Shown one piece after another: positions 11,192 to 30,392 of a stretch of 30,392 bases of DNA. Numbering within the stretch: the first letter of the stretch is position 1; each line of letters opens with the position of its first letter. Source of the stretch: a virus. The notes under the pieces are model-generated. The model did no database searches, was not told where the DNA came from, and saw nothing but the letters and a program-made list of their open reading frames with translations. Location: positions 1 to 30,392 of IMG/VR virus record IMGVR_UViG_3300032288_006023; one strand, given 5' to 3'. The translations under genes were made by a program, and so were the position numbers.

Positions 11192-11504
11192 AATAATAAA
11201 AATGATTTTCTATTGCCGCTTTATAGTCCTGTAGTGAAGGTAGAAGCGGAAATGGAATAATCAATATTGCTCCATCATAGATATTGTTTTCCAACCCACC
11301 AAACTGTGGATTTGCTTGTAAAATCAACCAACCAAAATAAGGTGTATTATAATACTCTTGGGAAACTTTATCTAATCTACTTCTAGCAACTTTATAAATG
11401 TAAGCCTTATCTGAAGCCTTTTGCGGTAATTGCACAAAAGGAACTACAGTTTGCTCACCGTTAATTAAAAATTGACTATATCTGTTCCAATACTGAAATG
11501 CCAT
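11181..11504 (-). CDS. LysM/gpX-like baseplate protein (gp53-like)
   Basis: The 107-aa product has the pattern of a LysM-like fold used by P2 tail protein X and T4 gp53-type wedge proteins: DKAYIYKVARSRLDKVSQEYY (residues about 32-52), FGWLILQANPQF, then a turn and GAILIIPFPL. In such phages the domain sits at the baseplate hub and stabilises its attachment to the tube. The start codon overlaps the stop of the 1694-aa gene by one base (TAATG) and its end overlaps the 2475-aa gene by 11 nt, so the three giant-baseplate genes are translationally coupled. It may also bind peptidoglycan, but tail LysM-like domains often do not. Confidence 0.65.
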   Translation of the reverse strand: MAFQYWNRYSQFLINGEQTVVPFVQLPQKASDKAYIYKVARSRLDKVSQEYYNTPYFGWLILQANPQFGGLENNIYDGAILIIPFPLLPSLQDYKAAIENHFYYYGR

Positions 11505-14500
11505 TAGTTAAGTTTTACTTTTGATATGTATATGTCCGCAACATTTCCATTACTATCACACCAAGTTTTTGTGTTTGTATTTTGATTTGTTGATGCCCCC
11601 AATCCCTTTATTAGATTTTGTTGGGAATCTTTTGTATTTGTATTGGCTTGGTTATCTGTACTATAAGTAAATTCCCTTGATTTTGAATCGAATGGTGTAA
11701 ACTTTACAAAGTTTTTCAATTCATTCTTTTCAAGATAATCTATAAAGTTTTTAGTAATTGTATTTTCTTCATTGAAGAGTGGTTTTGCGGTTCCAATCCA
11801 ATATTTGTCAAATTGTATTTCAATATCTTGTTGTCCGTCTGCCAATAATTTAGTATTTCCAATTATATTTCCAATCATGTCTTTTTTAAATGTTTCATAC
11901 TTTTTATCATCAACAACTTCATTGGATAAAATCATGTACACTTTTTTAAAGCTTGGGCTTGCAAATGTTTCATTTTTACTAAATGGTACAAATGTTTCTG
12001 TTGCGGTTATCTTATTTAATGGCGAATTACCGTCACCAACAATTTCATAAATTAATTTTCCCGTATATTCTTTTTTATCACTTGGATTCATAAAAGTTAC
12101 AGGATTATTTGTTATTGTATTAAATTCAATAATTTTGTTTTGTAAAGTTTTTACATCATTAACCAATTCAACAAGTGTATCTGAAGCGCCATTTGAAGAT
12201 GCGGAAACTTTTGATGTTCCTGAAGTAACATATATAACAACAGGACCATTTTTCTTTTGATAACCATCCGTTCCTGTATTAACAGTACCATCATAAGTAA
12301 TGGTATTTACCCTTCCTAATGTTTGAATATACGATTGTTGCACTGTTGTCATATCTTGTATGATTTTAGTAACAGCGTTTTGATAAATACCTTTTTTACC
12401 GTTTAATAAATTAACATAATTTTCTTTAATTACCTTTTTCGCCTTTTCAGAAAAGTTTTGATTATTTATAAACTTAACAAATCCTTCATCACCATTATTA
12501 ATATCTTTAATTAACAAATCAAAAATTTCATTTGTTACTTTTTGTATGTTTGTTGGTTTTCCAAAAAGAACAGTTTTTTTACCAGAATCTACTGACATAG
12601 TTCCCCCAACATAATTTCTTTCCATTTGCCATTGTTGTCTCATGGCATTGTTATATTGTGAAACAACTTCTTTGTTTTTATTTATAACATTTGTAAAATA
12701 AGTTTGAGTTTCGTTTACAACTTTTGTCATGAAATCACCATAACTTATAGTTCCTGTTTCTCCTGATGTTGTTGCCGAATTTGTAAGTATGGTACCTATA
12801 GTACTATTATTATCTTGTCCACTTGCTGGTTGTGACTGATTAAGAGCAGGGGCACCAGGAGGATTTGCCATAGATAAAAATTCTTTATCTAATGATTTTA
12901 AAAATTCTGAATTTTCTGTAACATCCGCTCTATCGTCGTATATTTCAGTATTGGCATAATAATTAAACGTTAATGCATTTTGTAACTTATCAATTGATTC
13001 TTTAAGACCACTACCACCAACAAAATTAAATGCCATTGTAATATTTGCAATCATTGGTTGAACTCCAATACCTTCGGGGTTTAAGTCAAGGTCTTCATAA
13101 GTAATGTTTAGTGATGTTGGAATTATTTTTGTATTATAAAAGTCCCCAACTCTTAATACCAAAACAGGTGGAGCTCCGAAAGATGTATTAGTTGCATTAT
13201 TATACTGTAATACAGGTGTACCTCCAATATCTTTAATTGTTGGTATTGTATCACCAGGTCTCATACATTGTTGTAAAAATGTTAACCTTCCATTTAACCC
13301 TTCAGGAGTCATCGAATGAAAAGCTGGTTGGAAAAACTTAAGTTTTTGTCTTAAATTATCATAAACCATTGGAGTTTCTTGTTTAATGGTTTCAAAATAA
13401 TCACATTCAGAAAGTAATGACCTTAACACTCTTTTAGTGATATTATCTCTTGGTGTCCATCTTTGCTCTACTTTTTGTGTCTTTACTGTTTCCGTAACAA
13501 CATTTTGTGTAACAACTTCAACGTATTGAGGTTCTGGTGTTGGTGTAGTTGCTTGTGGCTGTGATAAATTTCCTGTAATTTTAAATGTACTTCTTCTACA
13601 AGCCATTGCTCCGTATGTAAAAATTTCATCAGCATCAACGGTAACATCACCTCCCTTTACGTTAGGGTCTTGGTCTGTGCAATTAACTACCTGTCCTGTA
13701 GTTTTTTTATCTAAAGAATATTTTCCATCAACCGCAGTAAAATTTGTTGGTTGTGATAAGGTGCTTTCTCCGAAATTTTTTCCAGCAATTACACTCAATC
13801 TTTGTGTCTTAATCGCATCTTGAAGTTCTGGACTTTCATTAAAGAATTTTATCGCCGAATCAATTCTTCTTTGTGATAGTTCTTTATTATAAGTAACACT
13901 TGCGGGTGCAGAACAACTTGAGTCCACGGTTATTACTAAATTACCCTGTGGGTAATCGTTTAATTGTTTTGCAATATCTTTTACCATTTCTTGTATAAGT
14001 TGGTAATTTCCTGTTACAACATCATTAAAAAACTGACTTGTTTGATTTGCGGTAGATGGACTTTTTTTGGCATAATATTGTTTATTTGAATCTGATGTGT
14101 ATCTAGTATATTCAACATTATAATTTGGGACATTACCTTTTTTAGGATAATCATTACCGAAATAAAATGCCAAAGTACTGTTGTATTTGTTAAAATAATC
14201 ATTACCTAATGGTGTTGCCTGTGCAGTTACAGAACCAGAACCATCTGGTGAATTATTACCTGTTTGAATTGTTGATTTTGCAAACTGTATCTGTTCTTTA
14301 GTCATTTCTTGTGACGTAATTGCTTGCTGTAACTGATACAAGTCATTTGGATTTATTGTCCAATATTTTTTAGCTAATTCATATAAATCGTATTTTAGAC
14401 ATCCTGCAAAGAATGCATCAATCATACTATTAATTCTTGTGTTATTAGTTTCGTTATTAAGAACTTTATTAACTATAACATTCAAAACTGATGGGTGGTC

Positions 14501-16588
14501 AACAACTATCTTCCAACTTAAAGAGCCAGTTCTTTGAGTTGACTTGTATGTGTATATCGGTTCTGGTCTTCCCAAGAATTCACTTTGGTTCCAATTCGTA
14601 GATACTGATTCACTGAATGTTAATCCATAAGGAGGGAACCACATAACTCTTCCTCCGTTAGGACCTCTTTCGCAAATTGGTAGGTCTGCAACTGATGAGC
14701 CCCCACCACCTGGAGTACTCGCTGTTCTCCAAGCTAAGTTTTCAAGTGAAAACATGTATTTTTTGGCATAACCTATATTGGTACTTGTTCCACCAGGACC
14801 ATTGATAAGGTTTGTTGAATCTTGCCCTCCTTCTTGTTTGTTTGGAGCAATATTAAGATTATATGTGTTATCCAACACAGAATATGAAAATCTTCTACCT
14901 TGTGTTGTAATACCATCAGTTTTTTGTAAATCATTGTATTGAAGGTATGGAATATCTTTTGCAAAAACTCTACAATATTCCGTTCCCACTTCTTGTCCAA
15001 TACTTCCTGTGTACTTGATAACTCTAGAACCCTTTGTGAGCTCTTTGTACCCGTCATTAAAGACCTTACTTACTTGGTCTATGGCGTTACCAACATGTTG
15101 TAATCTTTTACCTCCTTGAGGTTGGCTATCAATAATTCTTTGGGTGTCGTCCAATATTGAACCTCCCTTGAATGTAATGTTTGTTGACTCGGTTGTATTA
15201 TATGAAGATGGTTTAAAATCTTCATCATCGTTTGTTATTTCACCACCAATACCAACTCTCTTACCTGCATTTCCTCTATACTTTGGTGACACCCAAGTCA
15301 TTCCACCTTCAATACCACCACCGCTACTATATGTTGGTCCGTTAGCCCCTAACTTAATTTCTTTACTTGGTCCTTCATATAATTGGGCCAATTCTTGTGG
15401 ACCATACACCGCAGTTTGTTGTTCAATACCAAACGAATTTACAGGTATTTCTCCCGCAGGGGAAAATACTCTTGATGGGTCGGATGATGTTGAACCAACA
15501 TAAAAATCAGAATTATTGGTAGTTGAACCAACAATGGCTCCTCCCAATCTATCAAATAAAGTTCTATCAAAACTTGGCTTATATCTGTTATAATCTATGT
15601 TGGCAAACAAACGTGACTTTTGTCCACCACCCATATTGTTATACATTATCTGCGAACCCGTCTGTCCACCACCTAATAATCTATTAAAGAATTTACCAAC
15701 AGTACTTTTTCTGAACGCATTGTTCATTTGTTGTATTGTTGTTGGCTGTCCAAGTTGTGTGTTTGTATCCCAATACGAACCAGGAATTGTAGAAACAGGT
15801 AATATACTTCCCGCTAATCTTAAAGCGAAATCTGTTGCAGCTAATACAGGATTTGATGGTACTGTGATTGTATAATTTGGTTCAATCAAAGGAACCATTC
15901 CTGTCACAATATTTAAAATATCTGTACCACTTCTTACATTAAAAACATTGGCTCTACCAATTGTATTTCTTCTTATTTCACTTGCAATTCTTTCTTCAAA
16001 ACTTTTCTTAAGTGTTTGAGCACCTAATCTAGCAATGAACGAGTCATTACTCAAAAGACCGTTACTGCCTTGTGGGTCAGGATTTAATAAAATTGAAATT
16101 GGCGAATATGACGAAGAATTAAATGTTGGATATGGTTGATTGTTATAAATTCCTTGTGAATTTGGTCCAACCAAATCTATACTATTAAAAAAGTTTGCAC
16201 TATCCAATAAAGTATCAGTACCATTAGAATAAGCGTTAACCGATTTCCATCTTTGAGATTCAGGTAATGCTTCATCAATAATCTTACCGTCCATATACCC
16301 ATATTCACCATCATTTGAATGGGTATTCATTAGCCCATTAGGGTCAGGAACTTGTTTGTACCCACCTTCTGAACCCCATTGATTTAATGGATAGAGTTTG
16401 TTAGCAAAACTTGGTTCGTCAATTAATTGGTCGGGACTATCTAAAACGGACGTATCTGATTGAATGTATTCGTAATTAGTTGGGGGCGTAGGTTTGTTTG
16501 GAGATTTGGCATATGGTGTCAAATTCCTCGTTATCAATTTTTTTCTAAATCCTTCTGAATTTACAAAATCTAGTGGACTATTCCCCAT
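11504..16588 (-). CDS. Giant baseplate protein with OmpA-like domain
   Basis: A 1694-aa tail protein. The N-terminal 600 residues are Asn/Gly/Ser/Tyr-rich with no clear family. Residues about 640-700 (WFPPYGLTFSESVS..., YKSTQRTGSLSWKI) and about 1133-1193 (PVLVLRVGDFYNTKIIPTSL, then NITMAFNFVGGSG) are beta-rich modules I associate with phage baseplate proteins. Residues about 866-1010 resemble an OmpA C-terminal peptidoglycan-binding domain: IAKQLNDYPQGNLVITVDSS, YNKELSQRRIDSAIKFF, RLSVIAGKNFGES and, after an insert, MACRRSTFKITG. The usual GHTD segment is changed. The C-terminal 450 residues are helical and Asn/Lys-rich. It lies between the tape measure and LysM-like genes, the normal place for baseplate hub or wedge genes. 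Function is inferred from context. Confidence 0.7.
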   Translation of the reverse strand: MGNSPLDFVNSEGFRKKLITRNLTPYAKSPNKPTPPTNYEYIQSDTSVLDSPDQLIDEPSFANKLYPLNQWGSEGGYKQVPDPNGLMNTHSNDGEYGYMDGKIIDEALPESQRWKSVNAYSNGTDTLLDSANFFNSIDLVGPNSQGIYNNQPYPTFNSSSYSPISILLNPDPQGSNGLLSNDSFIARLGAQTLKKSFEERIASEIRRNTIGRANVFNVRSGTDILNIVTGMVPLIEPNYTITVPSNPVLAATDFALRLAGSILPVSTIPGSYWDTNTQLGQPTTIQQMNNAFRKSTVGKFFNRLLGGGQTGSQIMYNNMGGGQKSRLFANIDYNRYKPSFDRTLFDRLGGAIVGSTTNNSDFYVGSTSSDPSRVFSPAGEIPVNSFGIEQQTAVYGPQELAQLYEGPSKEIKLGANGPTYSSGGGIEGGMTWVSPKYRGNAGKRVGIGGEITNDDEDFKPSSYNTTESTNITFKGGSILDDTQRIIDSQPQGGKRLQHVGNAIDQVSKVFNDGYKELTKGSRVIKYTGSIGQEVGTEYCRVFAKDIPYLQYNDLQKTDGITTQGRRFSYSVLDNTYNLNIAPNKQEGGQDSTNLINGPGGTSTNIGYAKKYMFSLENLAWRTASTPGGGGSSVADLPICERGPNGGRVMWFPPYGLTFSESVSTNWNQSEFLGRPEPIYTYKSTQRTGSLSWKIVVDHPSVLNVIVNKVLNNETNNTRINSMIDAFFAGCLKYDLYELAKKYWTINPNDLYQLQQAITSQEMTKEQIQFAKSTIQTGNNSPDGSGSVTAQATPLGNDYFNKYNSTLAFYFGNDYPKKGNVPNYNVEYTRYTSDSNKQYYAKKSPSTANQTSQFFNDVVTGNYQLIQEMVKDIAKQLNDYPQGNLVITVDSSCSAPASVTYNKELSQRRIDSAIKFFNESPELQDAIKTQRLSVIAGKNFGESTLSQPTNFTAVDGKYSLDKKTTGQVVNCTDQDPNVKGGDVTVDADEIFTYGAMACRRSTFKITGNLSQPQATTPTPEPQYVEVVTQNVVTETVKTQKVEQRWTPRDNITKRVLRSLLSECDYFETIKQETPMVYDNLRQKLKFFQPAFHSMTPEGLNGRLTFLQQCMRPGDTIPTIKDIGGTPVLQYNNATNTSFGAPPVLVLRVGDFYNTKIIPTSLNITYEDLDLNPEGIGVQPMIANITMAFNFVGGSGLKESIDKLQNALTFNYYANTEIYDDRADVTENSEFLKSLDKEFLSMANPPGAPALNQSQPASGQDNNSTIGTILTNSATTSGETGTISYGDFMTKVVNETQTYFTNVINKNKEVVSQYNNAMRQQWQMERNYVGGTMSVDSGKKTVLFGKPTNIQKVTNEIFDLLIKDINNGDEGFVKFINNQNFSEKAKKVIKENYVNLLNGKKGIYQNAVTKIIQDMTTVQQSYIQTLGRVNTITYDGTVNTGTDGYQKKNGPVVIYVTSGTSKVSASSNGASDTLVELVNDVKTLQNKIIEFNTITNNPVTFMNPSDKKEYTGKLIYEIVGDGNSPLNKITATETFVPFSKNETFASPSFKKVYMILSNEVVDDKKYETFKKDMIGNIIGNTKLLADGQQDIEIQFDKYWIGTAKPLFNEENTITKNFIDYLEKNELKNFVKFTPFDSKSREFTYSTDNQANTNTKDSQQNLIKGLGASTNQNTNTKTWCDSNGNVADIYISKVKLN

Positions 16589-16626: not shown

Positions 16627-18498
16627 TTATTGATATGATGCCGTTTTTGGTGCCTTAGTTGGGTCCCCCTTACTTGCAACATTTATTATCCAATCTTTAA
16701 ATCCTATTTCATTAAACTTGTCAGTTAAAGCTTTTGACATTGCAGTAATTTGTTCTTGTGTGAAAGGTGCACCATTTGGATTAGTGTTATTAATATTAAC
16801 ATCTAATTTTGGATTTGGTCCATCCCAACTAATTTTCATATCACCCTTAGACATTGCAGTTGTCAATTGAGTATTTAGACCGTCTTTACCATATAACATT
16901 GAATTTATTTGTTCTGCTTTGGCACCTTTTTGTGTATTTAATGAACTTGGCTCCATACCTATAGATTTTAAAAGTGCTTCCAAAGATTCTTTAATTGCAC
17001 CACCAACCGCAGTCTTATCACTTATTTTTTCAGCAGCATTAACACCTGATTTTTTTAATGCATCTGCAATTCCTGATTCTGACCTATTAAGTAACCCTTG
17101 TATTTTTTCTAAAAATTCTGCACCAGCAATATTTGGTTCTTTTTTACCTTTTGATAAATCTTTAACTAAATCAACAATAGCACCATATGCATCACTTGAA
17201 ACACCTCTTACATCTTTAGTTGAAAATGATTTTGATAACTCACTTAATATTGTTGATATTCCTTGTCTTCCACCTTCAAATTCCCCTAATACCTTTTGTG
17301 GCGATACTGTACCAAAAACAACTTTATCTTTAATTGCATTCAAATCACTCGCCATAAGTTTATCAAAATTCAATTGGGACCTTTGTATGTCTTCTAAAGT
17401 TTTTGGTCCTTCTTTTTGTTCTTTTAAAGTTGCATCTAATTGTTGTTGTGATATATTACTTATTTTTTCATAATATTCTTGACCCTTATCATCTTTAACT
17501 TTAATTTCATATTCACCGCCATCTCCCATTCTTGAAATGTTGGATAATAACATATTGTCTTCTTCACTTAAATTACGTCCAATACCCTTTATTGCAGATA
17601 TTCTTTTATCTGCTTCTGCAGCGGCTAAACCTAATTTTGACATTTCAGCAGCACTAACACCTGTTTGTTTTTCCATTTCTCTCAATGTCAAAACACCTTG
17701 TGGGTTTATTTTGAATGTTTTTGTTTCTTCATCAAAATATGTAAATTGTTTTGCAACATCTTTCAAACTATTTTGGAGACCTTGTGGGTCATTAATAGAT
17801 TGATTCATTAATTGAAATGGGTCTACAAGATTTCCTGCAGAAACCCCCAATCTTTGAAACGCCGCCGCTGTTTCTATTGCACCTTCAGGGTCTAACACTT
17901 TTTCGGCCAATCTGAATGTTTCGTTCATGTTAAACCTTAACATCGACGCTTGTGCAGCCATCTTTGTTAATCCTTGAACACCACCTTCAAACTGATAACG
18001 ATTGAGTTGGTCCATGTTATCACTAACAGTTTTGAAAACTTGTTTTGTATTACCTCCAATACTTTGAATATAATTTACAGAATCTTGAATTTGTTTCGAC
18101 ATTTGTCCAACGCCAACCCCAACATCATTAAATCCTTCAACTAAATTTGAAACCTCAACACCAGTAACTTTAGCAGCCGCGTATAATTTTTCTGTTTGTT
18201 CGGTTGTTATTATAACGTTTCTTCGACTAGCTTCTGCAGCATCTTCAATTACTTTAACCGTATTTTCAAAATTACCACCTAATTTTCTAACTTCAGGAAC
18301 TGCGTCTGCAATTGCGGTTTGAATTTCAACAATCCTCTGTCTTGTTTGTCCAAAAAGCCCGTTGATTTCTGTCGCAGCGTCACTTAAACCTCCAATGGCA
18401 CTTTGGATATCATTAAAAAATTTTTCTTTGTAGTTGGGGTCAGATAAATTTAAGATACCTAATCCATCCAATCCACCAGTTTTGCCGTCTTGTAACAT
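16627..18498 (-). CDS. Tail tape-measure protein
   Basis: This 623-aa protein is mostly alpha-helical, rich in Ala, Gln, Lys and Glu, and starts with a long helical section (FNDIQSAIGGLSDAATEING, then GQTRQRIVEIQTAIADAVPE). It has repeated helix blocks typical of tape-measure proteins, which set tail length inside the tube and leave through the baseplate on injection. T4 gp29 has a similar length (590 aa). No clear transmembrane segment is seen. The decisive argument is position: tail tube, chaperone pair, tape measure, baseplate, as in most tailed phages. The ATG (18496-18498) lies 18 nt after a perfect TATTTATA box and 28 nt after a terminator-like hairpin, so it likely starts its own late transcript. 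A role as T4 gp29 equivalent is inferred. Confidence 0.8.
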   Translation of the reverse strand: MLQDGKTGGLDGLGILNLSDPNYKEKFFNDIQSAIGGLSDAATEINGLFGQTRQRIVEIQTAIADAVPEVRKLGGNFENTVKVIEDAAEASRRNVIITTEQTEKLYAAAKVTGVEVSNLVEGFNDVGVGVGQMSKQIQDSVNYIQSIGGNTKQVFKTVSDNMDQLNRYQFEGGVQGLTKMAAQASMLRFNMNETFRLAEKVLDPEGAIETAAAFQRLGVSAGNLVDPFQLMNQSINDPQGLQNSLKDVAKQFTYFDEETKTFKINPQGVLTLREMEKQTGVSAAEMSKLGLAAAEADKRISAIKGIGRNLSEEDNMLLSNISRMGDGGEYEIKVKDDKGQEYYEKISNISQQQLDATLKEQKEGPKTLEDIQRSQLNFDKLMASDLNAIKDKVVFGTVSPQKVLGEFEGGRQGISTILSELSKSFSTKDVRGVSSDAYGAIVDLVKDLSKGKKEPNIAGAEFLEKIQGLLNRSESGIADALKKSGVNAAEKISDKTAVGGAIKESLEALLKSIGMEPSSLNTQKGAKAEQINSMLYGKDGLNTQLTTAMSKGDMKISWDGPNPKLDVNINNTNPNGAPFTQEQITAMSKALTDKFNEIGFKDWIINVASKGDPTKAPKTASYQ

Positions 18499-19495: not shown

Positions 19496-19984
19496 TTAGT
19501 AAACTAACACACATCTGTCCATTCTCATTGTTGCTGCAATTGTTGCCAATCCGTCTTGATTGTAAGCTAATGCATTAAAGTTAACATCTGTTAAGAACGT
19601 ACCATATAAAATCCATTTTTCAACAACCACACCAGTTGGGTCCAACATTTCGATGTCCACGTCTTTTTTGTATCCCGCAGCATAACCCATACGACCTGTA
19701 ACTGATTCTGCACAAAGACGAACCCACTCCATAAGAGCCTGAGACGCTGAAGGTCCGATTGGGTCTCTGAAAACAACGTTAAGTGTTTGCCAGTTAAACC
19801 TACCTGCAACGAATGTTGACGTATTAAGGAAAGGAATTTCTGTTGCATTGATTGTAATATGTGGTCTTGCAGCACTTTCTACAAACCATTCATTTATTCC
19901 TAAGCTTGATGGGAATCTAACGATAAAACGGTTTTGACGTTTTGGTTCGTAAGGTATCGGCATTTTCATCAGTAAATCAGCCAT
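19496..19984 (-). CDS. 19: Tail tube protein (gp19-like)
   Basis: A 162-aa protein, almost the same length as T4 gp19 (163 aa). It has the family's N-terminal pattern (PYEPKRQNRFIVRFPSSLGI, residues about 11-30), a central hydrophobic beta section (FNWQTLNVVFRDPIGPSASQ followed by ALMEWVRLCAE) and a C-terminal strand pair (VEKWILYGTFLTDVNFNAL, then ATIAATMRMDRCVLVY). It polymerises into the inner tube inside the sheath and conducts DNA on injection. The ATG is 31 nt downstream of a perfect TATTTATA box and the gene is closed by a strong terminator, consistent with very high late expression. The HAD gene lies between it and the sheath, unlike the T4 order 18-19. Confidence 0.92.
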   Translation of the reverse strand: MADLLMKMPIPYEPKRQNRFIVRFPSSLGINEWFVESAARPHITINATEIPFLNTSTFVAGRFNWQTLNVVFRDPIGPSASQALMEWVRLCAESVTGRMGYAAGYKKDVDIEMLDPTGVVVEKWILYGTFLTDVNFNALAYNQDGLATIAATMRMDRCVLVY

Positions 19985-20941: not shown

Positions 20942-23900
20942 TTAGATATTTTCAAACGATGCTCCTGTAGGTGTGATAAAGAATTCAATATCAATAAATT
21001 CAAGAGCCTTCGTTGGTTTAAGGTAAATCTTACCTGTAAGTGTGTTTCTGTCCAAATCTTCAGGTGTTGATGAAACCGTTACACGGAAATCATACAAACC
21101 TCTATCTCTTCTGATAGCATCTAAGATTGGGTTTACACTATCCAAGAATTGTTGTCTAACGATTTGGTCGTTTTGTTCGAACAACAATCTTACAGCTACA
21201 GCTGAAATCAACTTACGAGCTTGTAACAACAATCTTCTAACATTCAATCTGTTAAGAGCTGTGTCAGCAACTTGAAGTGTTTTGTTACCCCAAATTACAG
21301 TTCCAACATCAGAGAAAGTTGCGATAGGGTTAATTCTACCTTGATACAATGTATCTCTATCTTCTTGTGTTAGTTTAATTCTTGCTTTAACTGAATTAAC
21401 AAGACCTCTTGTGTAACCCGCTGATGCGAACCAAGGGAATGCAATGTTATCAGTCAACGCTAAGTTTCTACAAACTTCACCTGTTGGTGGTAGATAGATT
21501 TGTGTGTTATTTACAGTATCTCTTGTTAAAATCCAAGGATAGTAAGTTGCTGTGTAGTTAGAATCAATTCCTGTGTTATCAAGATTGTCAACCGCTTCTT
21601 GTGGGTAGATAATTTGTTGAGGGTCAGTTGCGTCTGGTAAGTACATGTTGTAGTCAGGTGTTGTTGCGATATAAACTGAATCTGCTCTTTGGTATTGTAC
21701 CATATCAATTGCTTCTTCAACAAGATTTGAGTTGTTAACATAATCAATACTTGAAGTTGCAAAAACGTTAATGTTTGTCGCTTCAGGATTTGAATAAGTT
21801 AAAATACCAAGTAAGTAAGCGTAATAGTCAGTGTTTGCAAAATCTTGTGTGTTGTTTTGTACAACAATTCTTTTGAACAAACCGTCACCAGTTGCTGTTG
21901 GGTATCTTGTTGATGGTGCAGCTCCTGCTAAATAACCTGACGCTCCAAGTTGGAATCTATCTTGGTTAGTTCTGAATTCTCTATAGATATCCCATCCATC
22001 AAATCCTCCTGCAAAACATACTGTATATTTTCTTGAATATATAAAGTAGTAAGGATTATCTTGTGTTTCAGGGTCATTTCTGAAATCAGCAACTCCACAT
22101 TCAAATGCAGTTTCACCACTTGTTCCGTAGATATCACTAATTGTTACAACAGTTGCACCTGAGTCCATGTGGAAACCTTTACTTAAAACGTTCCAAGGAG
22201 CTGATTCGGTTACTAATTCCCAGTTAGATTGTGGGTTTTGTTTTCCTTTGTAAGTAAGGAAAGATTCATCAATACCAAATTGTGTTGAAAATCCTAAGTA
22301 GCTTCTTCTTATAATATCACCACTAGACTCAACTGTATTAGTTCCTCCAAAAGGACTATCAAAAGGTGGGTTAGCGATAACTTCACCAGGATAGTAGTAT
22401 TTAGTTTTAAACTTAGGATATGGTGATGGATTTGTTAGTGAACCATATTCTCTTTGTGTGTATCCATAGAAACCACAAGGTAAAGCATCTACTGGTGCTT
22501 CATCCGCCATCTCAACCATAATATATTTTGAAATTAAAGCGTATTCACCATTAGAAGTACCAATCTTAACACCAATGAAACTGTTAGATAGAGGGTCTAA
22601 AGTACAGTTTGTGAATTTTTCAATTACTACAGGATTTGTATCTGTATCATAGAAATTTCTAACTAATACATCAAAAGTCATATTATTAAATGAAAGATTT
22701 GCAATTGAAACTTTAATTTCTGTATTTGCAGAATCACCATCAGAAATTGATATGAATTTGAATAATTTATAAACTTTATTACCTCTCAATTCAGAAACTA
22801 AATAAGGTGTTTCAGGTGATTGATATTTTTCTAAATTCCATGCAATTGATTGACTACTTCTACTTCTTGCACTTGGTAATGCAACCAATTCACAATTCAA
22901 ACCTTTAATATAACTTTGATTATAAGCGTAGTTTAATGCTCCAGGATAAATTTCTTCAACAAAGATAGGAACTTCAAATCTTGATTTACCAAAATTATCA
23001 ACACCTAAAACTTTAGTGATATACTTTGATGAAGACGCCGATAAACTTGATTCAAAACTAAAGTTATTACCATTCTTAGTAACACCCGATAATAAGAATG
23101 TTGCGTATGGTGAACTTGTAACTCCTGAATATTGACCTGAACATACCATGTTTAAATCAGTCAAACCACTAACTTCATAAATAGGTCCATGGTCATCACT
23201 ACTAGCACTATTAGAATATAAAGAAATACCTCTTGAACGAAGAGTTGCAATTACCATGTTATTAAACTCTGAATACGCAGTACCTGAGTAAGTATATACA
23301 TTACCTGAAATAGTACCTGTAAAATTACCTGAACCGGCATTAGTTAAAGATACAACAGAGTAATATGCCGAATAACCTGAATAGTCATTATCATTGTAGT
23401 TATTAAAGTTTGCATAATACCAAGCGTCATTACTACCTGAACTTAGGTCATTAGTTTCTAAATTAACACTATCACAACCATATTGATTAATAATATTTGA
23501 ATATTGCGAATATAATGCCCAATAATCGTTAGTTAAAATCGCACCGTATGCAGATGCTGTAGTTGCGGACAATGAATTATCATCTAATATTGTACCAACA
23601 TTAAAAGCCACATCATCATATATTGTTGATGTACTCCCATCCTGCATTCTATACTGTGTATATAAATTAGGTAAAATATAATTTGTAAAACCAGCATCAT
23701 ATGATTGGAATTGGAAAGTATTTCCTGAAGCGTTCCCTGAAAAAGTTGCAGACCAAGGAATTCCATTAGCAACGTTTGGACCTACAGTGGTAGGGTCAAC
23801 GTTCGCGGTTACCCTAATACTCCAAGAAGGACCCGCATCATAACCTGACAATCCTAATACTCTAGTTACAAATAACTGATTAGATTGTTGAAGATATGAT

Positions 23901-24154
23901 TTAGCAATGTATGCTGCTTCATATTTTGGGATTTGTGTATTCACAAATTTAACAGGTTCAGTGCCACCGAAGTATGCCTGAAACTCATCGTAATTTGTTA
24001 TAAAAACGGGTTCGAATGCTGGACCTTTAATTGTCTCACCAACTAGACCTAATGTGGTAACACCCACACTCTGTGCGACGAACGATAAGTCCGTTTCAGA
24101 AGTGTATACTCCAGGTGATACATAAACTTTTTGATTTGCTTGTGCTGTTGCCAT
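20942..24154 (-). CDS. 18: Contractile tail sheath protein (gp18-like)
   Basis: A 1070-aa sheath protein. The N-terminus shows the sheath pattern VYVSPGVYTSETDLSF, GLVGETIKGPAFEPVFITNY and EFQAYFGG (residues about 10-65). The conserved C-terminal assembly domain is also clear (about 880-1070): TLQVADTALNRLNVRRLLLQ, RQQFLDSVNPILDAIRRDRG and YLKPTKALEFIDIEFFITP. It forms the outer sheath whose contraction drives the tube into the host. T4 gp18 has 659 aa, so about 400 extra residues lie in the middle, mostly in a Ser/Gly/Asn/Tyr-rich section (about residues 110-410), likely surface domains. Upstream a GATAAATA-type box (sense TATTTATC) lies 32 nt before the ATG; a strong terminator follows. Confidence 0.92.
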   Translation of the reverse strand: MATAQANQKVYVSPGVYTSETDLSFVAQSVGVTTLGLVGETIKGPAFEPVFITNYDEFQAYFGGTEPVKFVNTQIPKYEAAYIAKSYLQQSNQLFVTRVLGLSGYDAGPSWSIRVTANVDPTTVGPNVANGIPWSATFSGNASGNTFQFQSYDAGFTNYILPNLYTQYRMQDGSTSTIYDDVAFNVGTILDDNSLSATTASAYGAILTNDYWALYSQYSNIINQYGCDSVNLETNDLSSGSNDAWYYANFNNYNDNDYSGYSAYYSVVSLTNAGSGNFTGTISGNVYTYSGTAYSEFNNMVIATLRSRGISLYSNSASSDDHGPIYEVSGLTDLNMVCSGQYSGVTSSPYATFLLSGVTKNGNNFSFESSLSASSSKYITKVLGVDNFGKSRFEVPIFVEEIYPGALNYAYNQSYIKGLNCELVALPSARSRSSQSIAWNLEKYQSPETPYLVSELRGNKVYKLFKFISISDGDSANTEIKVSIANLSFNNMTFDVLVRNFYDTDTNPVVIEKFTNCTLDPLSNSFIGVKIGTSNGEYALISKYIMVEMADEAPVDALPCGFYGYTQREYGSLTNPSPYPKFKTKYYYPGEVIANPPFDSPFGGTNTVESSGDIIRRSYLGFSTQFGIDESFLTYKGKQNPQSNWELVTESAPWNVLSKGFHMDSGATVVTISDIYGTSGETAFECGVADFRNDPETQDNPYYFIYSRKYTVCFAGGFDGWDIYREFRTNQDRFQLGASGYLAGAAPSTRYPTATGDGLFKRIVVQNNTQDFANTDYYAYLLGILTYSNPEATNINVFATSSIDYVNNSNLVEEAIDMVQYQRADSVYIATTPDYNMYLPDATDPQQIIYPQEAVDNLDNTGIDSNYTATYYPWILTRDTVNNTQIYLPPTGEVCRNLALTDNIAFPWFASAGYTRGLVNSVKARIKLTQEDRDTLYQGRINPIATFSDVGTVIWGNKTLQVADTALNRLNVRRLLLQARKLISAVAVRLLFEQNDQIVRQQFLDSVNPILDAIRRDRGLYDFRVTVSSTPEDLDRNTLTGKIYLKPTKALEFIDIEFFITPTGASFENI

Positions 24155-25472: not shown

Positions 25473-25886
25473 TTATTCTTTAACTATGAATAATTTATTT
25501 TTTGAATTTATCATATCAACTTCTGATGCCCCAAAAATTGGTTCTTTTGTTGATTTAATTACGAAAGAATCATATTTGTATGGGTCATATGTAACAATCA
25601 TATCATTTGGTTCTTCTGGCAGATTTTCACATGGATATTCACAATATTCTAACAAATCACCAATTACAAATGCATGAACATTTTTTCTTTGTTCCCCTCT
25701 AACTTTTTCCTTACCACCCTGCCTAACTCTAAATTCAACATCTCCCAATTTTACGTAATCAGCATGCATAATAACCTTACCTTGGTAACTTACCGAAAAA
25801 GTGTGTTTGTGTAAGTTATAATAAACCATAACCCTTTTACCCAAAAACAAATTTTCAAATTGCGATTCCGTAATTAATATATTCAT
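25473..25886 (-). CDS. Small protein with N-terminal LITES tag
   Basis: A 137-aa protein starting MNILITESQF, a short N-terminal tag also hinted at in other products of this window. The body has VYYNLHKHTFSVSYQGKVIM, then DVEFRVRQGGKEKVRGEQRK and NVHAFVIGDLLEY. I recall this pattern from uncharacterised phage proteins but cannot name a function. Two cysteines lie close together (EYCEYPCEN). It sits between the neck-like and gp15-like genes with a 1-nt overlap and a 1-nt gap, so it is co-transcribed and co-translated with head-tail joining proteins. It may be a virion protein; the tag could be a prohead protease site. Confidence 0.68.
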   Translation of the reverse strand: MNILITESQFENLFLGKRVMVYYNLHKHTFSVSYQGKVIMHADYVKLGDVEFRVRQGGKEKVRGEQRKNVHAFVIGDLLEYCEYPCENLPEEPNDMIVTYDPYKYDSFVIKSTKEPIFGASEVDMINSKNKLFIVKE

Positions 25887-26398
25887 TATATTCCTCTAAA
25901 TTCATTTTCACTTACCCATGTGGCAGTCACCGTTCTATAGAATGGTTTATAACCAGCATAAGTGTGTTTATTATCCGATTTAACGTATCCATCGTCACTG
26001 ACAACATAGTATCTAACTCTACTCTCACTTTCGTAATACCCCAAATAATCTCCCAAAAATATTTCAACACCCAAATCATCAAGAGTTTTTTGATATAAAC
26101 TAAATTTCATATTACCTGGCTCTTGTTGTTCTACCTTAGAAGTACCTAACAATTTATTAGTTGGTGCCATTACTTGAACCAGTCCTTTTAATTCAATCGG
26201 TGCTAAAAATTGTATTCCGTCTTCCAAAACCTCACCATATACCTTATCAGTTTCTGTTTTCCTTCTATCAATACGATAAAGAACAACGGTGAAGTTCATA
26301 TCACCTAATAACCATTCTTCACCCATACCAATATCTAAAGCATAATCTTCCCCACCAAAGAATTTACCAAGACGTGTTATCGGAACTAATTTTTGCAT
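25886..26398 (-). CDS. Neck/head-tail connector-like protein
   Basis: A 170-aa protein with FTVVLYRIDRRKTETDKVYG (about residues 36-55), a central beta-rich part, DDLGVEIFLGDYLGYYESES (about 111-130) and YAGYKPFYRTVTATWVSENE near the C-terminus. This pattern, with a linear stretch of YRID and EIFLGDYLGYY, resembles neck or connector proteins (gp13/gp14-like) of T4-like phages. It is the first gene of the leftward late block, with a TATTTATC box 5 nt before the ATG. The downstream gene begins on its last base (TAATG). The neck role is inferred from position before gp15-like and sheath genes. Confidence 0.5.
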   Translation of the reverse strand: MQKLVPITRLGKFFGGEDYALDIGMGEEWLLGDMNFTVVLYRIDRRKTETDKVYGEVLEDGIQFLAPIELKGLVQVMAPTNKLLGTSKVEQQEPGNMKFSLYQKTLDDLGVEIFLGDYLGYYESESRVRYYVVSDDGYVKSDNKHTYAGYKPFYRTVTATWVSENEFRGI

Positions 26399-26446: not shown

Positions 26447-26845
26447 ATGGTTATAACAACTCCTATCAAAATTTATTTGGATAAAAGCCCAATTCACGGG
26501 TGGGGAGTGTTTGCAAATCAATCAATTGCTGAAAATGAAATAATTGAGATTTGTCCCGTGATTGATATGGGGATATATTTTGGTGATGTTTCACATATCT
26601 TAATTGACTATAGATTTAATTGGCCACAAGGTACTCCAAATTATGAAAAACAAGTTGTTTGTTCGGGATATGGTATGATGTATAATCATAGTGAAAACCC
26701 AAATGCCGCTTGGCGTTCAAATGAAGAAAACAATACTTTTGAATTTTATAGTATCAAACCTATTAGACCACAGGAAGAAATTTTTATTTGGTACGGTGAT
26801 ATGAATTATTGGAATGACGGCAGGACCCATACAAATGTAATATGA
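26447..26845 (+). CDS. SET-domain protein (lysine methyltransferase-like)
   Basis: A 132-aa compact SET domain. The signature parts are present in order: HGWGVFA (residues 17-23, the GWG loop that binds S-adenosylmethionine), YNHSENPNA (79-87, the NHxxxPN core motif) and IRPQEEIFIWYGDMNYW (106-122) with the closing Tyr. SET proteins transfer a methyl group from SAM to lysine side chains of proteins. There is no pre-SET or post-SET zinc region, so it is a minimal SET like the chlorovirus vSET. It diverges from the neck gene with a 48-nt gap and overlaps the SNF2 helicase by 4 nt (ATGA), so the two are translationally coupled. The substrate is unknown; phage or host DNA-binding proteins are candidates. 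Confidence 0.85.
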   Translation: MVITTPIKIYLDKSPIHGWGVFANQSIAENEIIEICPVIDMGIYFGDVSHILIDYRFNWPQGTPNYEKQVVCSGYGMMYNHSENPNAAWRSNEENNTFEFYSIKPIRPQEEIFIWYGDMNYWNDGRTHTNVI

Positions 26846-28599
26846 CTTTTGAAGCTCCATTAGAATCTAAGGCATTAACAATACTTGAAACCTATGAAGG
26901 TGCAAACAATTATTTGCTTGAACTAAAAAGAAAATCACAAGTTAATAAGAAGTTCTACCCAACAAGAAATCAGGCGGAATATATTATAAACAACCACGAC
27001 AAACAGCCAAAGGTTGCGAAGAAATGGGTAATACTTGATGCATATTTCGCTCAGAAATTGGCTGATGATAAGTTATACACCGAAATACCTGAAAAGGTTT
27101 GGGTGGAAAAATTACTGGCGGAAAAAGATAAAGCGTTTCATATTTGGGGTAAGGTTTTTGAATCAGAACAACTACATGATTTTTGGCTTCCAAAAGCTTC
27201 GATAATTAAAGATAACACGGTTAAAGACGTGGTTATCAGTTATGAAAAATATTCTAAAAGACCTCCCTTATCTCATCAAAAAGAAGCCATCCAAAAGTTG
27301 GTTGAAAACAAAAAATTCATCTTGGCCGATGATATGGGTCTTGGTAAAACTACATCCACTATTATCGCGGCTCTTGAAACAGGCGCAAAAAAAATCTTAA
27401 TTATTTGTCCAGCAACATTAAAAATAAACTGGAAGAGGGAAATTGAAAATTATTCGGATAGGTCTGTTTATATTGCCGAAGGAAAAAACTTTGACGGTAA
27501 TAACGACTTTGTAATAATAAATTACGACATCATAAAAAACTTTCACGATGCTAAGAAAAAAGATGAATCGCAAATTCTTGCTGCCAATTTTGATTTGGTG
27601 GTCATTGATGAAGCACACTATATCAAAAATGCTCAAGCCCAAAGAACAAAACTGATAAATGATATTGTTAAAAATATTGAACGACTTTGGTTGTTAACAG
27701 GAACTCCCATGACTTCCCGTCCAATTGATTATTATAATCTACTTAGCTTGATAGATTCGCCAGTTGCCAAAAATTGGATGGCTTATGTCATAAGATATTG
27801 TAGTGGATACCAATTCAAAGTTGGTCCACGAAAAGTATGGAACGTCATGGGGGCTTCCAATTTGGAAGAATTGCGTGACAGAACATTAGGACTTACCTTA
27901 AGAAGATTAAAAGAAGATGTTTTAGATTTACCTGATAAAATTATCACTCCTGTTTATTTGAGATTAAAGTCAAAAGAATATGAAGAGGTGATGGGTGAAT
28001 ACTATAATTGGTATGATAAAAATCCTGACGAATCTAAATCTTTGACGGTTCAGTTTACCAAACTAACAAAAGTTAGGCAAATCATTGCAGATGAAAAAAT
28101 CACACAGACAATTGAACTTGCGGAAAACATTTTAGAACAGGATAAAAAAGTTATTATATTTTGTAACTTCACAGATTCATTAAATAAAATTTGTGAACAC
28201 TTTGGAAAATCTGCAGTTAAACTTGACGGCTCCATGTCCAAAGCAGAAAGACAATTTTCTGTTGACCAATTCCAAGAAAACGAAAAGGTAAAAGTTTTTG
28301 TCGGGAACATTAAAGCTGCTGGTGTTGGTATTACACTTACCGCAGCAGAAGCTGTTATTATGAATGACCTATCGTTTCTTCCATCAGACCATTCCCAAGC
28401 TGAAGATAGAGCATACAGATACGGACAGAAAAATAATGTATTGGTTTATTACCCAATTTTTGAAAATACAATCGAAGGTGTTATCTACGATATTCTAGCA
28501 AATAAAAAACAAGTTATCTCAACGGTGTTGGGAGATAATCTAAATAGTGGTGACGCAGCAGAAGAAATACTAAAAAGAATTAACGAACTTCGGCCTTAA
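26842..28599 (+). CDS. SNF2-family DNA helicase/translocase
   Basis: A 585-aa superfamily 2 ATPase of SNF2 type. Motifs in order: Q-like HQKEAI (residues 145-150), Walker A DDMGLGKT (163-170), DEAH (256-259), LTGTP (285-289), the C-terminal lobe IIFCNF (439-444), GVGITLT (495-501) and QAEDRAYRYGQ (520-530). The DEAH plus RxGQ motif VI is diagnostic of SNF2/SMARCAL1-type double-stranded DNA translocases, which remodel protein-DNA complexes or fork structures. The N-terminal 140 residues are unassigned. It overlaps the SET gene by 4 nt. It lacks zinc fingers or nuclease domains. In bacteria SNF2 proteins occur in defence systems, and in phages near replication genes; its job here is unknown. 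Confidence 0.92.
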   Translation: MTFEAPLESKALTILETYEGANNYLLELKRKSQVNKKFYPTRNQAEYIINNHDKQPKVAKKWVILDAYFAQKLADDKLYTEIPEKVWVEKLLAEKDKAFHIWGKVFESEQLHDFWLPKASIIKDNTVKDVVISYEKYSKRPPLSHQKEAIQKLVENKKFILADDMGLGKTTSTIIAALETGAKKILIICPATLKINWKREIENYSDRSVYIAEGKNFDGNNDFVIINYDIIKNFHDAKKKDESQILAANFDLVVIDEAHYIKNAQAQRTKLINDIVKNIERLWLLTGTPMTSRPIDYYNLLSLIDSPVAKNWMAYVIRYCSGYQFKVGPRKVWNVMGASNLEELRDRTLGLTLRRLKEDVLDLPDKIITPVYLRLKSKEYEEVMGEYYNWYDKNPDESKSLTVQFTKLTKVRQIIADEKITQTIELAENILEQDKKVIIFCNFTDSLNKICEHFGKSAVKLDGSMSKAERQFSVDQFQENEKVKVFVGNIKAAGVGITLTAAEAVIMNDLSFLPSDHSQAEDRAYRYGQKNNVLVYYPIFENTIEGVIYDILANKKQVISTVLGDNLNSGDAAEEILKRINELRP

Positions 28600-28612
28600 A
28601 TAACTTTTGGAT

Positions 28613-28620
28613 TATTTATA
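28613..28620 (+). promoter_or_regulatory. TATTTATA box upstream of the SOD fusion gene
   Basis: An exact TATTTATA on the plus strand, 20 nt before the ATG at 28641, in the 41-nt gap after the SNF2 gene. Same sense and similar distance as in the minus-strand late genes. Confidence 0.5.
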
Positions 28621-28640
28621 TCTAAATAGATACTCCAAAT

Positions 28641-30179
28641 ATGAAGAGATTAGAGAAGAAAATTCAACAAGTCGAAAAACAAATTATCGAAACCCACATC
28701 ACCAAAGAAAAAGAATTGTTGATTACAGAAATGAAAAAAATCGGAATAGAAGAATTACCTTATTCCTACTCAGCCCTTAGACAATTTATTGACCCTGAAA
28801 CAATGAACATCCATTATAATAAACATTATAAGGGATATGTCGATAAATTAAATAACGCCCTGTCCAAGAAAAAATATGGTGATTTAGAATTAGAACAGAT
28901 TATCAAAACAATTTCACGTTTTGATAAAACAATAAGAAATAATGCTGGTGGTGCATTTAATCACGCATTGTTTTGGAATATGTTAACCCCAAAACCAAAA
29001 AAACTTGAAGGGGAACTTTATAAAAAAATTACAAAACAATTTGGAAGTTTTGCCGAATTCAAAAAGAAATTCGAAACAATATCCAAAGAAAGATTTGGTT
29101 CAGGATGGGTATGGCTTATCCTTACGGCAAAAAATACCTTGAAAATTATGTCGACCCCAAATCAAGATAATCCTTTAATGAACGTAATTGAAGGTGGGGG
29201 ATTTCCAATTCTTGGATTGGATTTATGGGAACACGCCTATTATCTAAAGTACAGAAACAAAAGAGACGAATATATTTCCAATTTTTGGAAAGTTGTTAAT
29301 TGGGATTTTGTTTCTAAACTATATCAAATGAAAACAGAAACAAAACTTTTAGAATCAATTGAAATGGGTAAAGTAATAACAGAATCGGTAGACGCTAAAT
29401 TTTGTGACTCAAAAGAAGTTTTATTCTATAAAGATTTAATAAACAACAGTAGAGTTAAAAAAATATATCAGGACGGAGTTACGGATGTATTAAAAAATGT
29501 GTTTAGTCAGTTTTGGGTTGAAGGTGATACAAAAGAAATGTCAGGATTTTATGGTGTTGAATCTAAAGAAGGAAGGTCCCTACTAAATAATTTAAACACA
29601 AATTTTAATGCATTTTGTTTATTAGTTAGAGCAGTGAATAAAGAAATTGAAAAAATCGATAGACAAGATAAGATATTTGATTTTAGTAAAAAAGAAAATA
29701 GAACACCCAAAGAAGTACAAAGGTTCATAAGTGCATTAAATCATTTCAAAAAGAATGTTTTTACAAAAAATAATGAAGATTTTATCAATATTATAAAAGT
29801 ACTTAAAAAATTGTGGGATAGAGGTCAAAAATCTGAAAACAGTGTTCATAAAAAATTAGAAGATTATTTTGAAGGTAATGCTGAAATTGAAAAAATTGGG
29901 GGTCATGGTCAAAAAGAAGACGCGTTTAAAGGTGTGGACATGTTGATAAAGATGGGCGGTAAAGTTTATACATCACAAATCAAACCATTTTCAACCGTGT
30001 CAATTGCTGATAATAAAGTTGAATTGTTTGATACTGGTAATGTTAAACCATATAATGTTGATTGGTTAATATTTATACAACCCAAAACAAACAAAATTTT
30101 AATTTTTGATAATAAACCTATCAGTGACAAGGGCCAATATATATTTAATTTGGATTCACTTAAACACGAAATAGAATAA
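28641..30179 (+). CDS. Mn-type superoxide dismutase fused to PD-(D/E)XK-like region
   Basis: A 512-aa fusion. Residues 1-35 form a charged helical extension with LITE (27-30). Residues about 36-235 are a complete Fe/Mn superoxide dismutase: metal ligands His58 (NIHYNKHY), His108 (FNHALFW), Asp194 and His198 (LDLWEHAYY), gateway His62 and Tyr66. Gly104 and Gln175 (PNQDNPLM) at the metal-specificity positions indicate the Mn type. It would turn superoxide into oxygen and peroxide. Residues 236-512 are extra. The C-terminal part shows a Glu-rich helix HKKLEDYFEG (403-412), GVDMLI (431-436), a Q-x-K strand VYTSQIKPF (442-450) and YNVDWLIFIQ (471-480), the order of a PD-(D/E)XK nuclease. MGKVITESVD (242-251) looks like an internal tagged start. 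The gene has its own box; the nuclease call is an inference. Confidence 0.85.
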   Translation: MKRLEKKIQQVEKQIIETHITKEKELLITEMKKIGIEELPYSYSALRQFIDPETMNIHYNKHYKGYVDKLNNALSKKKYGDLELEQIIKTISRFDKTIRNNAGGAFNHALFWNMLTPKPKKLEGELYKKITKQFGSFAEFKKKFETISKERFGSGWVWLILTAKNTLKIMSTPNQDNPLMNVIEGGGFPILGLDLWEHAYYLKYRNKRDEYISNFWKVVNWDFVSKLYQMKTETKLLESIEMGKVITESVDAKFCDSKEVLFYKDLINNSRVKKIYQDGVTDVLKNVFSQFWVEGDTKEMSGFYGVESKEGRSLLNNLNTNFNAFCLLVRAVNKEIEKIDRQDKIFDFSKKENRTPKEVQRFISALNHFKKNVFTKNNEDFINIIKVLKKLWDRGQKSENSVHKKLEDYFEGNAEIEKIGGHGQKEDAFKGVDMLIKMGGKVYTSQIKPFSTVSIADNKVELFDTGNVKPYNVDWLIFIQPKTNKILIFDNKPISDKGQYIFNLDSLKHEIE

Positions 30180-30198: not shown

Positions 30199-30392
30199 AT
30201 GGCAGTAATTCCAGAACCAGAAAGAAGTAAAATTTATACGAGAGTTAAACACCTATTAGGTGCTCCGTTAAGAAGTGTAGAACTTGAAGATGAAATGATG
30301 GATTCCTTAATGGAATTATCTATTCAGGACTACGAAGAATATATTTTACAGTGGTTAATTGACTCTCAGTGGGTTAACCTTGTAAATCTTAA
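30199..30392 (+). CDS. Structural-like protein, N-terminal fragment
   Basis: The first 64 codons of a gene that continues past the window end. The protein starts MAVIPEPERSKIYTRVKHLL, then GAPLRSVELEDEMMDSLMEL and SIQDYEEYILQWLIDSQW. This N-terminal helical pattern, with a short domain ending in WLIDSQW, recalls phage structural proteins found near portal and neck genes, but I cannot name the family with certainty. It would place a second, rightward block of virion genes after the SET-SNF2-SOD cassette. The ATG is 19 nt after the SOD fusion stop codon. Confidence 0.6.
   Translation, partial: MAVIPEPERSKIYTRVKHLLGAPLRSVELEDEMMDSLMELSIQDYEEYILQWLIDSQWVNLVNL

Follow-up and report, generated by a model that had tools for sequence, protein, structure and literature searches.

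Superoxide dismutases (SODs) encoded by phages are commonly taken to support host metabolism. Free-standing Fe/Mn-SOD genes are found in jumbo phages, including sodB of Pseudomonas phage Callisto and a gene of Vibrio phage 2.275.O (182 and 189 aa, respectively, both without a nuclease), and the SODs of freshwater phages have been interpreted as protection against oxidative stress (PMC6802176). Among phage nucleases of the restriction endonuclease (REase) fold, gp4 of phage T4 is a head-completion nuclease required for morphogenesis, and jumbo phages are said to employ REase-fold proteins as resolvases (PMC7824862).

In the viral DNA analysed here (the window, 30,392 nt, IMG/VR record IMGVR_UViG_3300032288_006023), which comes from a jumbo T4-related phage, an SOD and a predicted PD-(D/E)XK nuclease are encoded together by a single open frame of 512 codons (28641..30179, + strand). 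Both halves are members of known superfamilies; the attached nuclease family is unnamed. An initial annotation of the window had read the gene as a phage SOD fused to a PD-(D/E)XK-like nuclease region, a reading now upheld by family profiles, a predicted structure with fold search, conservation of both sites and the presence of the gene on at least 80 contigs. It also knew of no SOD joined to a nuclease, and searches of open-access papers likewise turned up no description of such a fusion.

Architecture of the fusion gene

The protein begins with an extension of 35 residues (28641..28745, + strand) that is conserved among relatives and predicted by AlphaFold2 (AF2), at low confidence, to form a helix over residues 2-33. 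This is followed by the Mn-type SOD domain, residues 36-230 (28746..29330, + strand), as defined by Pfam, PDB sequence matches and invariance in 25 relatives. The 282 residues after the SOD (231-512) are referred to as the C-terminal module. Its first part, residues 231-385 (29331..29795, + strand), is a linker and helical region recognised from the AF2 model and from alignment with SOD-less homologues. It contains the conserved motif EMSGFYG..S.LNNLNTNFN and, in the same alignment, is part of the module that also occurs alone. The second part, residues 386-512 (29796..30176, + strand), is the PD-(D/E)XK nuclease domain, identified with Foldseek and VIA-align and from residues that do not vary among 15 diverse sequences.

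An internal start at M230, which would give a free nuclease, is unlikely because the Met is replaced by Leu in one fusion (L340) and by Ile in another (L355). In the full-length AF2 model the SOD part was of low confidence because the alignment was shallow, and this model was set aside.

The SOD domain and its probable origin

Both Pfam domains of the Fe/Mn superoxide dismutase family exceed their gathering scores and place the N-terminal half in that family: Sod_Fe_N (PF00081) covers residues 36-115 (7e-22, 78.1 bits, cut-off 27) and Sod_Fe_C (PF02777) residues 123-226 (2.2e-40, 137.3 bits, cut-off 20.9). Top matches to the SOD half in a PDB sequence search are Mn-SODs (6gsc, 2.9e-59). The four ligands of a Mn-type SOD named in the initial annotation, H58 (28812-28814), H108 (28962-28964), D194 (29220-29222) and H198 (29232-29234, all on the + strand), are at the positions claimed, as are the Mn markers G104 and Q175, and all six are invariant in 25 relatives. 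H62, Y66, W196, E197 and Y201 are likewise invariant in this set. Judged from its sequence, the SOD domain is complete and has an intact active site.

Compared with bacterial Mn-SOD (SodA; PF00081/PF02777), the domain is the same complete one, with all ligands and Mn markers, and it groups with Bacteroidota SODs; however, the fusion is phage-encoded and adds the 35-residue N-terminal extension and the C-terminal nuclease module. In a tree of 59 SODs, which was a quick analysis with long branches and a cellular sample drawn by pattern matches, 15 fusion SODs form one group (SH-aLRT 94). This group adjoins Fluviicola, a member of the Bacteroidota, with support of 97, and falls within a larger Bacteroidota set with support of 90. 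The Callisto and Vibrio phage 2.275.O SODs, which are 26-29% identical to the fusion SOD, are placed away from the fusion SODs in the tree. Only one SOD copy is present in each phage record searched. The SOD most likely came from a Bacteroidota-like bacterium. The host is also likely to belong to the Bacteroidota, given the placement of the SOD in the tree and the nearest cultured phage by recombinase, which is a Flavobacterium phage (43%).

Predicted fold and active site of the C-terminal module

The C-terminal module has no match in Pfam, NCBIfam or the defence families, and phmmer and hmmsearch against PDB gave no match to solved structures at the sequence level. An AF2 model of the module was built from 25 homologues, with a mean pLDDT of 80. 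Leading PDB matches to this model with Foldseek are I-Ssp6803I, the SPARDA effector nuclease, Hjc, EcoT38I, NhoI and RecU (best E 5.7e-3). VIA-align gives Z of 5-6.6 for Hjc, NhoI, I-Ssp6803I, SPARDA, RecU and PvuII, with a matched span of model residues ~158-282, that is, protein residues ~388-512. This region is predicted to adopt a PD-(D/E)XK fold, the matches being remote and of modest Z, and the leading rows belonging to one superfamily. I-Ssp6803I, the SPARDA effector nuclease, archaeal Hjc, RecU, NhoI and PvuII share the fold of residues ~388-512, but are remote (8-17% identity) and have other partners and functions. For resolvases of the Hjc and RecU type, fold matches have Z of 4.5-6.6, and there is no sequence match to the module.

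In the model, the residues occupy the elements expected for this fold: a long helix contains E399, D433 is located at the first of the core strands, and Q446-x-K448 on the strand that follows. The model shows the order of elements that had been read from the letters alone (a helix Glu, a GVD strand, a Q-x-K strand, then more strands), and the structure prediction and fold comparison proposed for the C-terminal part give a predicted alpha-beta-beta-beta nuclease core with PD-(D/E)XK proteins as the leading matches. E399 (29835-29837), D427 (29919-29921), D433 (29937-29939), Q446 (29976-29978) and K448 (29982-29984, all on the + strand) are invariant in 15 diverse sequences, both fused and SOD-less, at ~28% identity. 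As this set includes two SOD-less homologues, a chance residue pattern is excluded. The alignment points to a PD-(D/E)XK site made up of acidic residues and a Lys, in the QxK variant.

Over the nuclease part there is also a weak match to phrog_5018, a family of unknown function (18 of 25 members, best 7.9e-5). Weak but repeated, this match suggests a PD-(D/E)XK type for phrog_5018 as well.

Distribution and conservation of the fusion

A search for the same fusion in other phages, as the initial annotation had advised, was positive, with at least 80 contigs carrying it as one uninterrupted gene. In one scan of viral contigs, 80 were found with the fusion, from many metagenomes, and nearly all match residues 1-512 without indels at 71-81% identity. 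Fusion length is constant at 512 aa in the non-redundant set, with L340 at 510 aa and L355 at 511 aa. Among the fetched viral loci, several of which can come from one contig, SOD and module occur together in 240 of 240 ORFs, each way round. The longest records that carry the fusion are 317-326 kb. An assembly error or chance join is ruled out by the 80 independent contigs, the constant length and the conserved gene order.

A more distant relative was found by structure matching in BFVD: A0A6J5L953, a 501-aa protein of an uncultured Caudovirales phage, matches nearly the whole module at 28% identity and is clearly a diverged version of this fusion. It was deposited as 'superoxide dismutase', with no mention of a nuclease. 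A cellular origin of the fusion was considered and rejected: within the reach of exact-pattern seeding, two scans of cellular genome contigs were negative for the C-terminal module. An SOD fragment in a MAG (L215, 60% identical) ends without the module.

Median dN/dS rises from ~0.04 in the SOD to ~0.11 in the helical region and ~0.17 in the nuclease domain; synonymous sites are close to saturated. These values indicate that all parts are under purifying selection, which is strongest on the SOD.

The module without SOD

A weak tblastn match (E 0.3) led to P0002, a 290-aa protein encoded in LR756501, a 735-kb phage record. The entire C-terminal module can be aligned with P0002, at 97% and E 3.5e-11 by hhalign and at 5e-8 in a single BLASTP comparison, and a search for an SOD across the LR756501 record was negative. 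The gene for P0002 lies next to a SET-domain gene with homology to the one close to the window's fusion (phmmer 1.3e-35). A second SOD-less copy (L297) is 288 aa long, 66% identical to P0002 and located in a 53.9-kb viral contig. A search with P0002 alone returned no further viral contig, and a profile of the two standalone members returned only the L297 contig. Searches for the module in Flavobacterium phage immuto, Microcystis phage Mel-JY01, Stenotrophomonas phage RAS14, Vibrio phage 2.275.O, Callisto and T4 did not find it. A match in MT836370 (E=10) was discarded as noise.

Another BFVD structure match over most of the module's length, A0A8D9CCA0 from an uncultured marine phage (1113 aa, 22% identity), has a different partner region, and thus the module may join several partners. 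From these alignments, the nuclease module appears to be older than the SOD fusion, or at least separable from it. Since the module occurs alone with the same active-site residues, an existing phage nuclease most likely gained an SOD. The simplest history would be that a free phage nuclease came first and a Bacteroidota-type SOD was added later. The C-terminal module represents an unnamed nuclease family of huge phages, occurring with and without SOD.

Gene neighbourhood and upstream motif

Directly upstream of the fusion is an SNF2-type helicase gene (26842..28599, + strand; Pfam SNF2-rel_dom 3.6e-29, Helicase_C 3.9e-19), which is itself preceded by a gene for a SET-domain protein (26447..26845, + strand; Pfam SET 3.6e-16), the one with a homologue beside the SOD-less nuclease of the 735-kb phage. 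SET-domain proteins are mostly known as protein methyltransferases. The gene downstream of the fusion, a homologue of T4 gp13 and head-tail adaptor Ad2, starts at 30199 and is cut by the window end (30199..30392, + strand); its orthologue in another locus (L054, 375 aa) matches phrog_211, head-tail adaptor Ad2, at E 1.1e-9. In the four loci that were read, the order is SNF2 helicase, fusion, gp13-like neck gene, a 111-aa gene and a DNA polymerase on the opposite strand, and three of the four have the SET-domain gene ahead of the helicase. To the left of the fusion, the window carries sheath, tube and baseplate genes on the minus strand.

An imperfect inverted repeat, GGATTAT...ATAATCC (28609..28636, + strand), lies just before the start codon of the fusion and may form an RNA hairpin. 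Compensatory changes are seen in two pairs, and 93% of cells are paired. Variants of the arms are GGATTA/TAATCC, GAGTTA/TAACTC and GGGTTA/TAACCC, and the repeat is absent in a few relatives. The repeat holds TTATTTATA (28612-28620), which overlaps the 5' arm and shows little or no variation among 21 relatives.

The motif TATTTAT was counted in eight loci whose gene content overlaps: 42 of 116 genes have it in the sense direction no more than 70 nt upstream, against an expectation of 2.5 and an antisense count of 7. It precedes the sheath, tube, gp13-like neck and fusion genes. In the window it is located 13-40 nt before 11504-16588, 16627-18498, 19496-19984, 20942-24154, 25886-26398 and 28641-30179. 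From this distribution, TATTTAT or TTATTTATA is a putative late promoter of the fusion-bearing phage group, unlike the T4 sequence TATAAATA, and its being common to virion genes and the fusion suggests late expression of the fusion.

Possible roles of the fusion protein

While the architecture, an SOD with a nuclease-fold module, is well supported, the function of the protein is something we infer. As a whole explanation, a nuclease for packaging or head completion that carries a tethered superoxide scavenger is the reading preferred here, and is put forward tentatively. The protein would be bifunctional, with a Bacteroidota-like SOD joined to the N-terminus of an old nuclease module and the fusion then fixed. 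Its nuclease would cut DNA at a late stage, most likely to trim or free the ends when DNA is packaged or the head completed. Mn-SODs form dimers or tetramers, and SOD dimers would hold two nuclease units together; the SOD would also scavenge superoxide at places where DNA and the metal-bound sites of the nuclease lie exposed in the dying cell. That the tethered SOD shields DNA ends and the nuclease metal site during assembly or, if packaged, during entry into the next cell is a possible but doubtful extension of this role. If true, it would make the protein a DNA-directed antioxidant enzyme of a virus.

The nuclease role is likened here to that of T4 gp4 (phrog_218), as an analogy. The fusion gene adjoins a gp13-like neck gene, and the nuclease module sits where T4 uses gp4. 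However, T4 gp4 is a protein of 150 aa without the helical module or an SOD, and the two appear related in fold but are not detectably homologous: hhalign with a single gp4 sequence found no similarity to the module (probability 0.2%, 7 columns), and a PHROG scan of the fusion protein gave no phrog_218 match. The fusion is therefore not assigned to the gp4 family, although it may work in a similar way. The gp4 family was also not found in three jumbo records (G001, G002 and G007) in a search without a positive control; this absence is weak evidence because the search gave no match anywhere. The T4 DNA end protector gp2 was considered as well, and a single gp2 sequence has no profile similarity to the module.

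With an SNF2 helicase upstream on the same strand, a recombination role would fit equally well. The nuclease could act in recombination or replication, for instance by resolving junctions, in partnership with this helicase while the SOD protects replicating DNA; such a role is considered possible, if improbable. It agrees with the presence of Hjc and RecU among the best fold matches, with the immediate proximity of the helicase in the loci read and with the reported use of REase-fold proteins as resolvases in jumbo phages (PMC7824862). However, many nucleases of other function have resolvase-like folds, the 49 kb read in the 735-kb phage contain, with the SOD-less homologue, the SET gene but no counterpart of the window's SNF2 helicase, and the upstream motif shared with virion genes points to late expression.

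It is rather unlikely that the two halves have loosely tied jobs, with the SOD acting as an auxiliary metabolic gene against host oxidative stress and the nuclease acting independently, for example on host or rival-phage DNA. The interpretation of the freshwater phage SODs, the existence of free-standing phage SODs and the much slower evolution of the SOD than of the nuclease are consistent with such a division. Nevertheless, oxidative-stress protection would not explain the fusion: a free SOD needs no permanent partner, yet the 240 ORFs all retain it at constant length, and the nuclease matches no known defence family. The SOD is here locked to a DNA-cutting-enzyme fold inside a virion gene cluster, with no exception among the copies checked, and a testable question arises as to whether some viruses guard DNA handling locally against superoxide.

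Many PD-(D/E)XK nucleases act as dimers. An SOD that acts chiefly as a scaffold to dimerise the nuclease, with catalysis secondary, would suit this habit and that of Mn-SODs, as well as the invariance of the dimer-interface residues E197 and Y201. It is nonetheless quite improbable, as none of the metal ligands or of the second-sphere residues, Q175 and Y66 among them, varies either, and a pure scaffold would not need them. Least probable, to the point of being barely tenable, is a dead nuclease that tethers the SOD to DNA, the initial annotation's 'DNA-binding leftover', which is in keeping with a QxK rather than (D/E)xK site but is weakened by QxK sites in active members of the superfamily and by the persistence of the full catalytic residue set to ~28% identity, SOD-less copies included.

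Other features of the window

The tail sheath gene (20942-24154) encodes 1070 aa, of which sheath profiles match the last ~230 residues, leaving ~800 extra residues on the N-terminal side. Between the sheath gene and the SET-domain gene, 25473-25886 encodes a homologue of mycobacteriophage L5 gp82 (PF25735, 5.3e-31), here in a jumbo phage.
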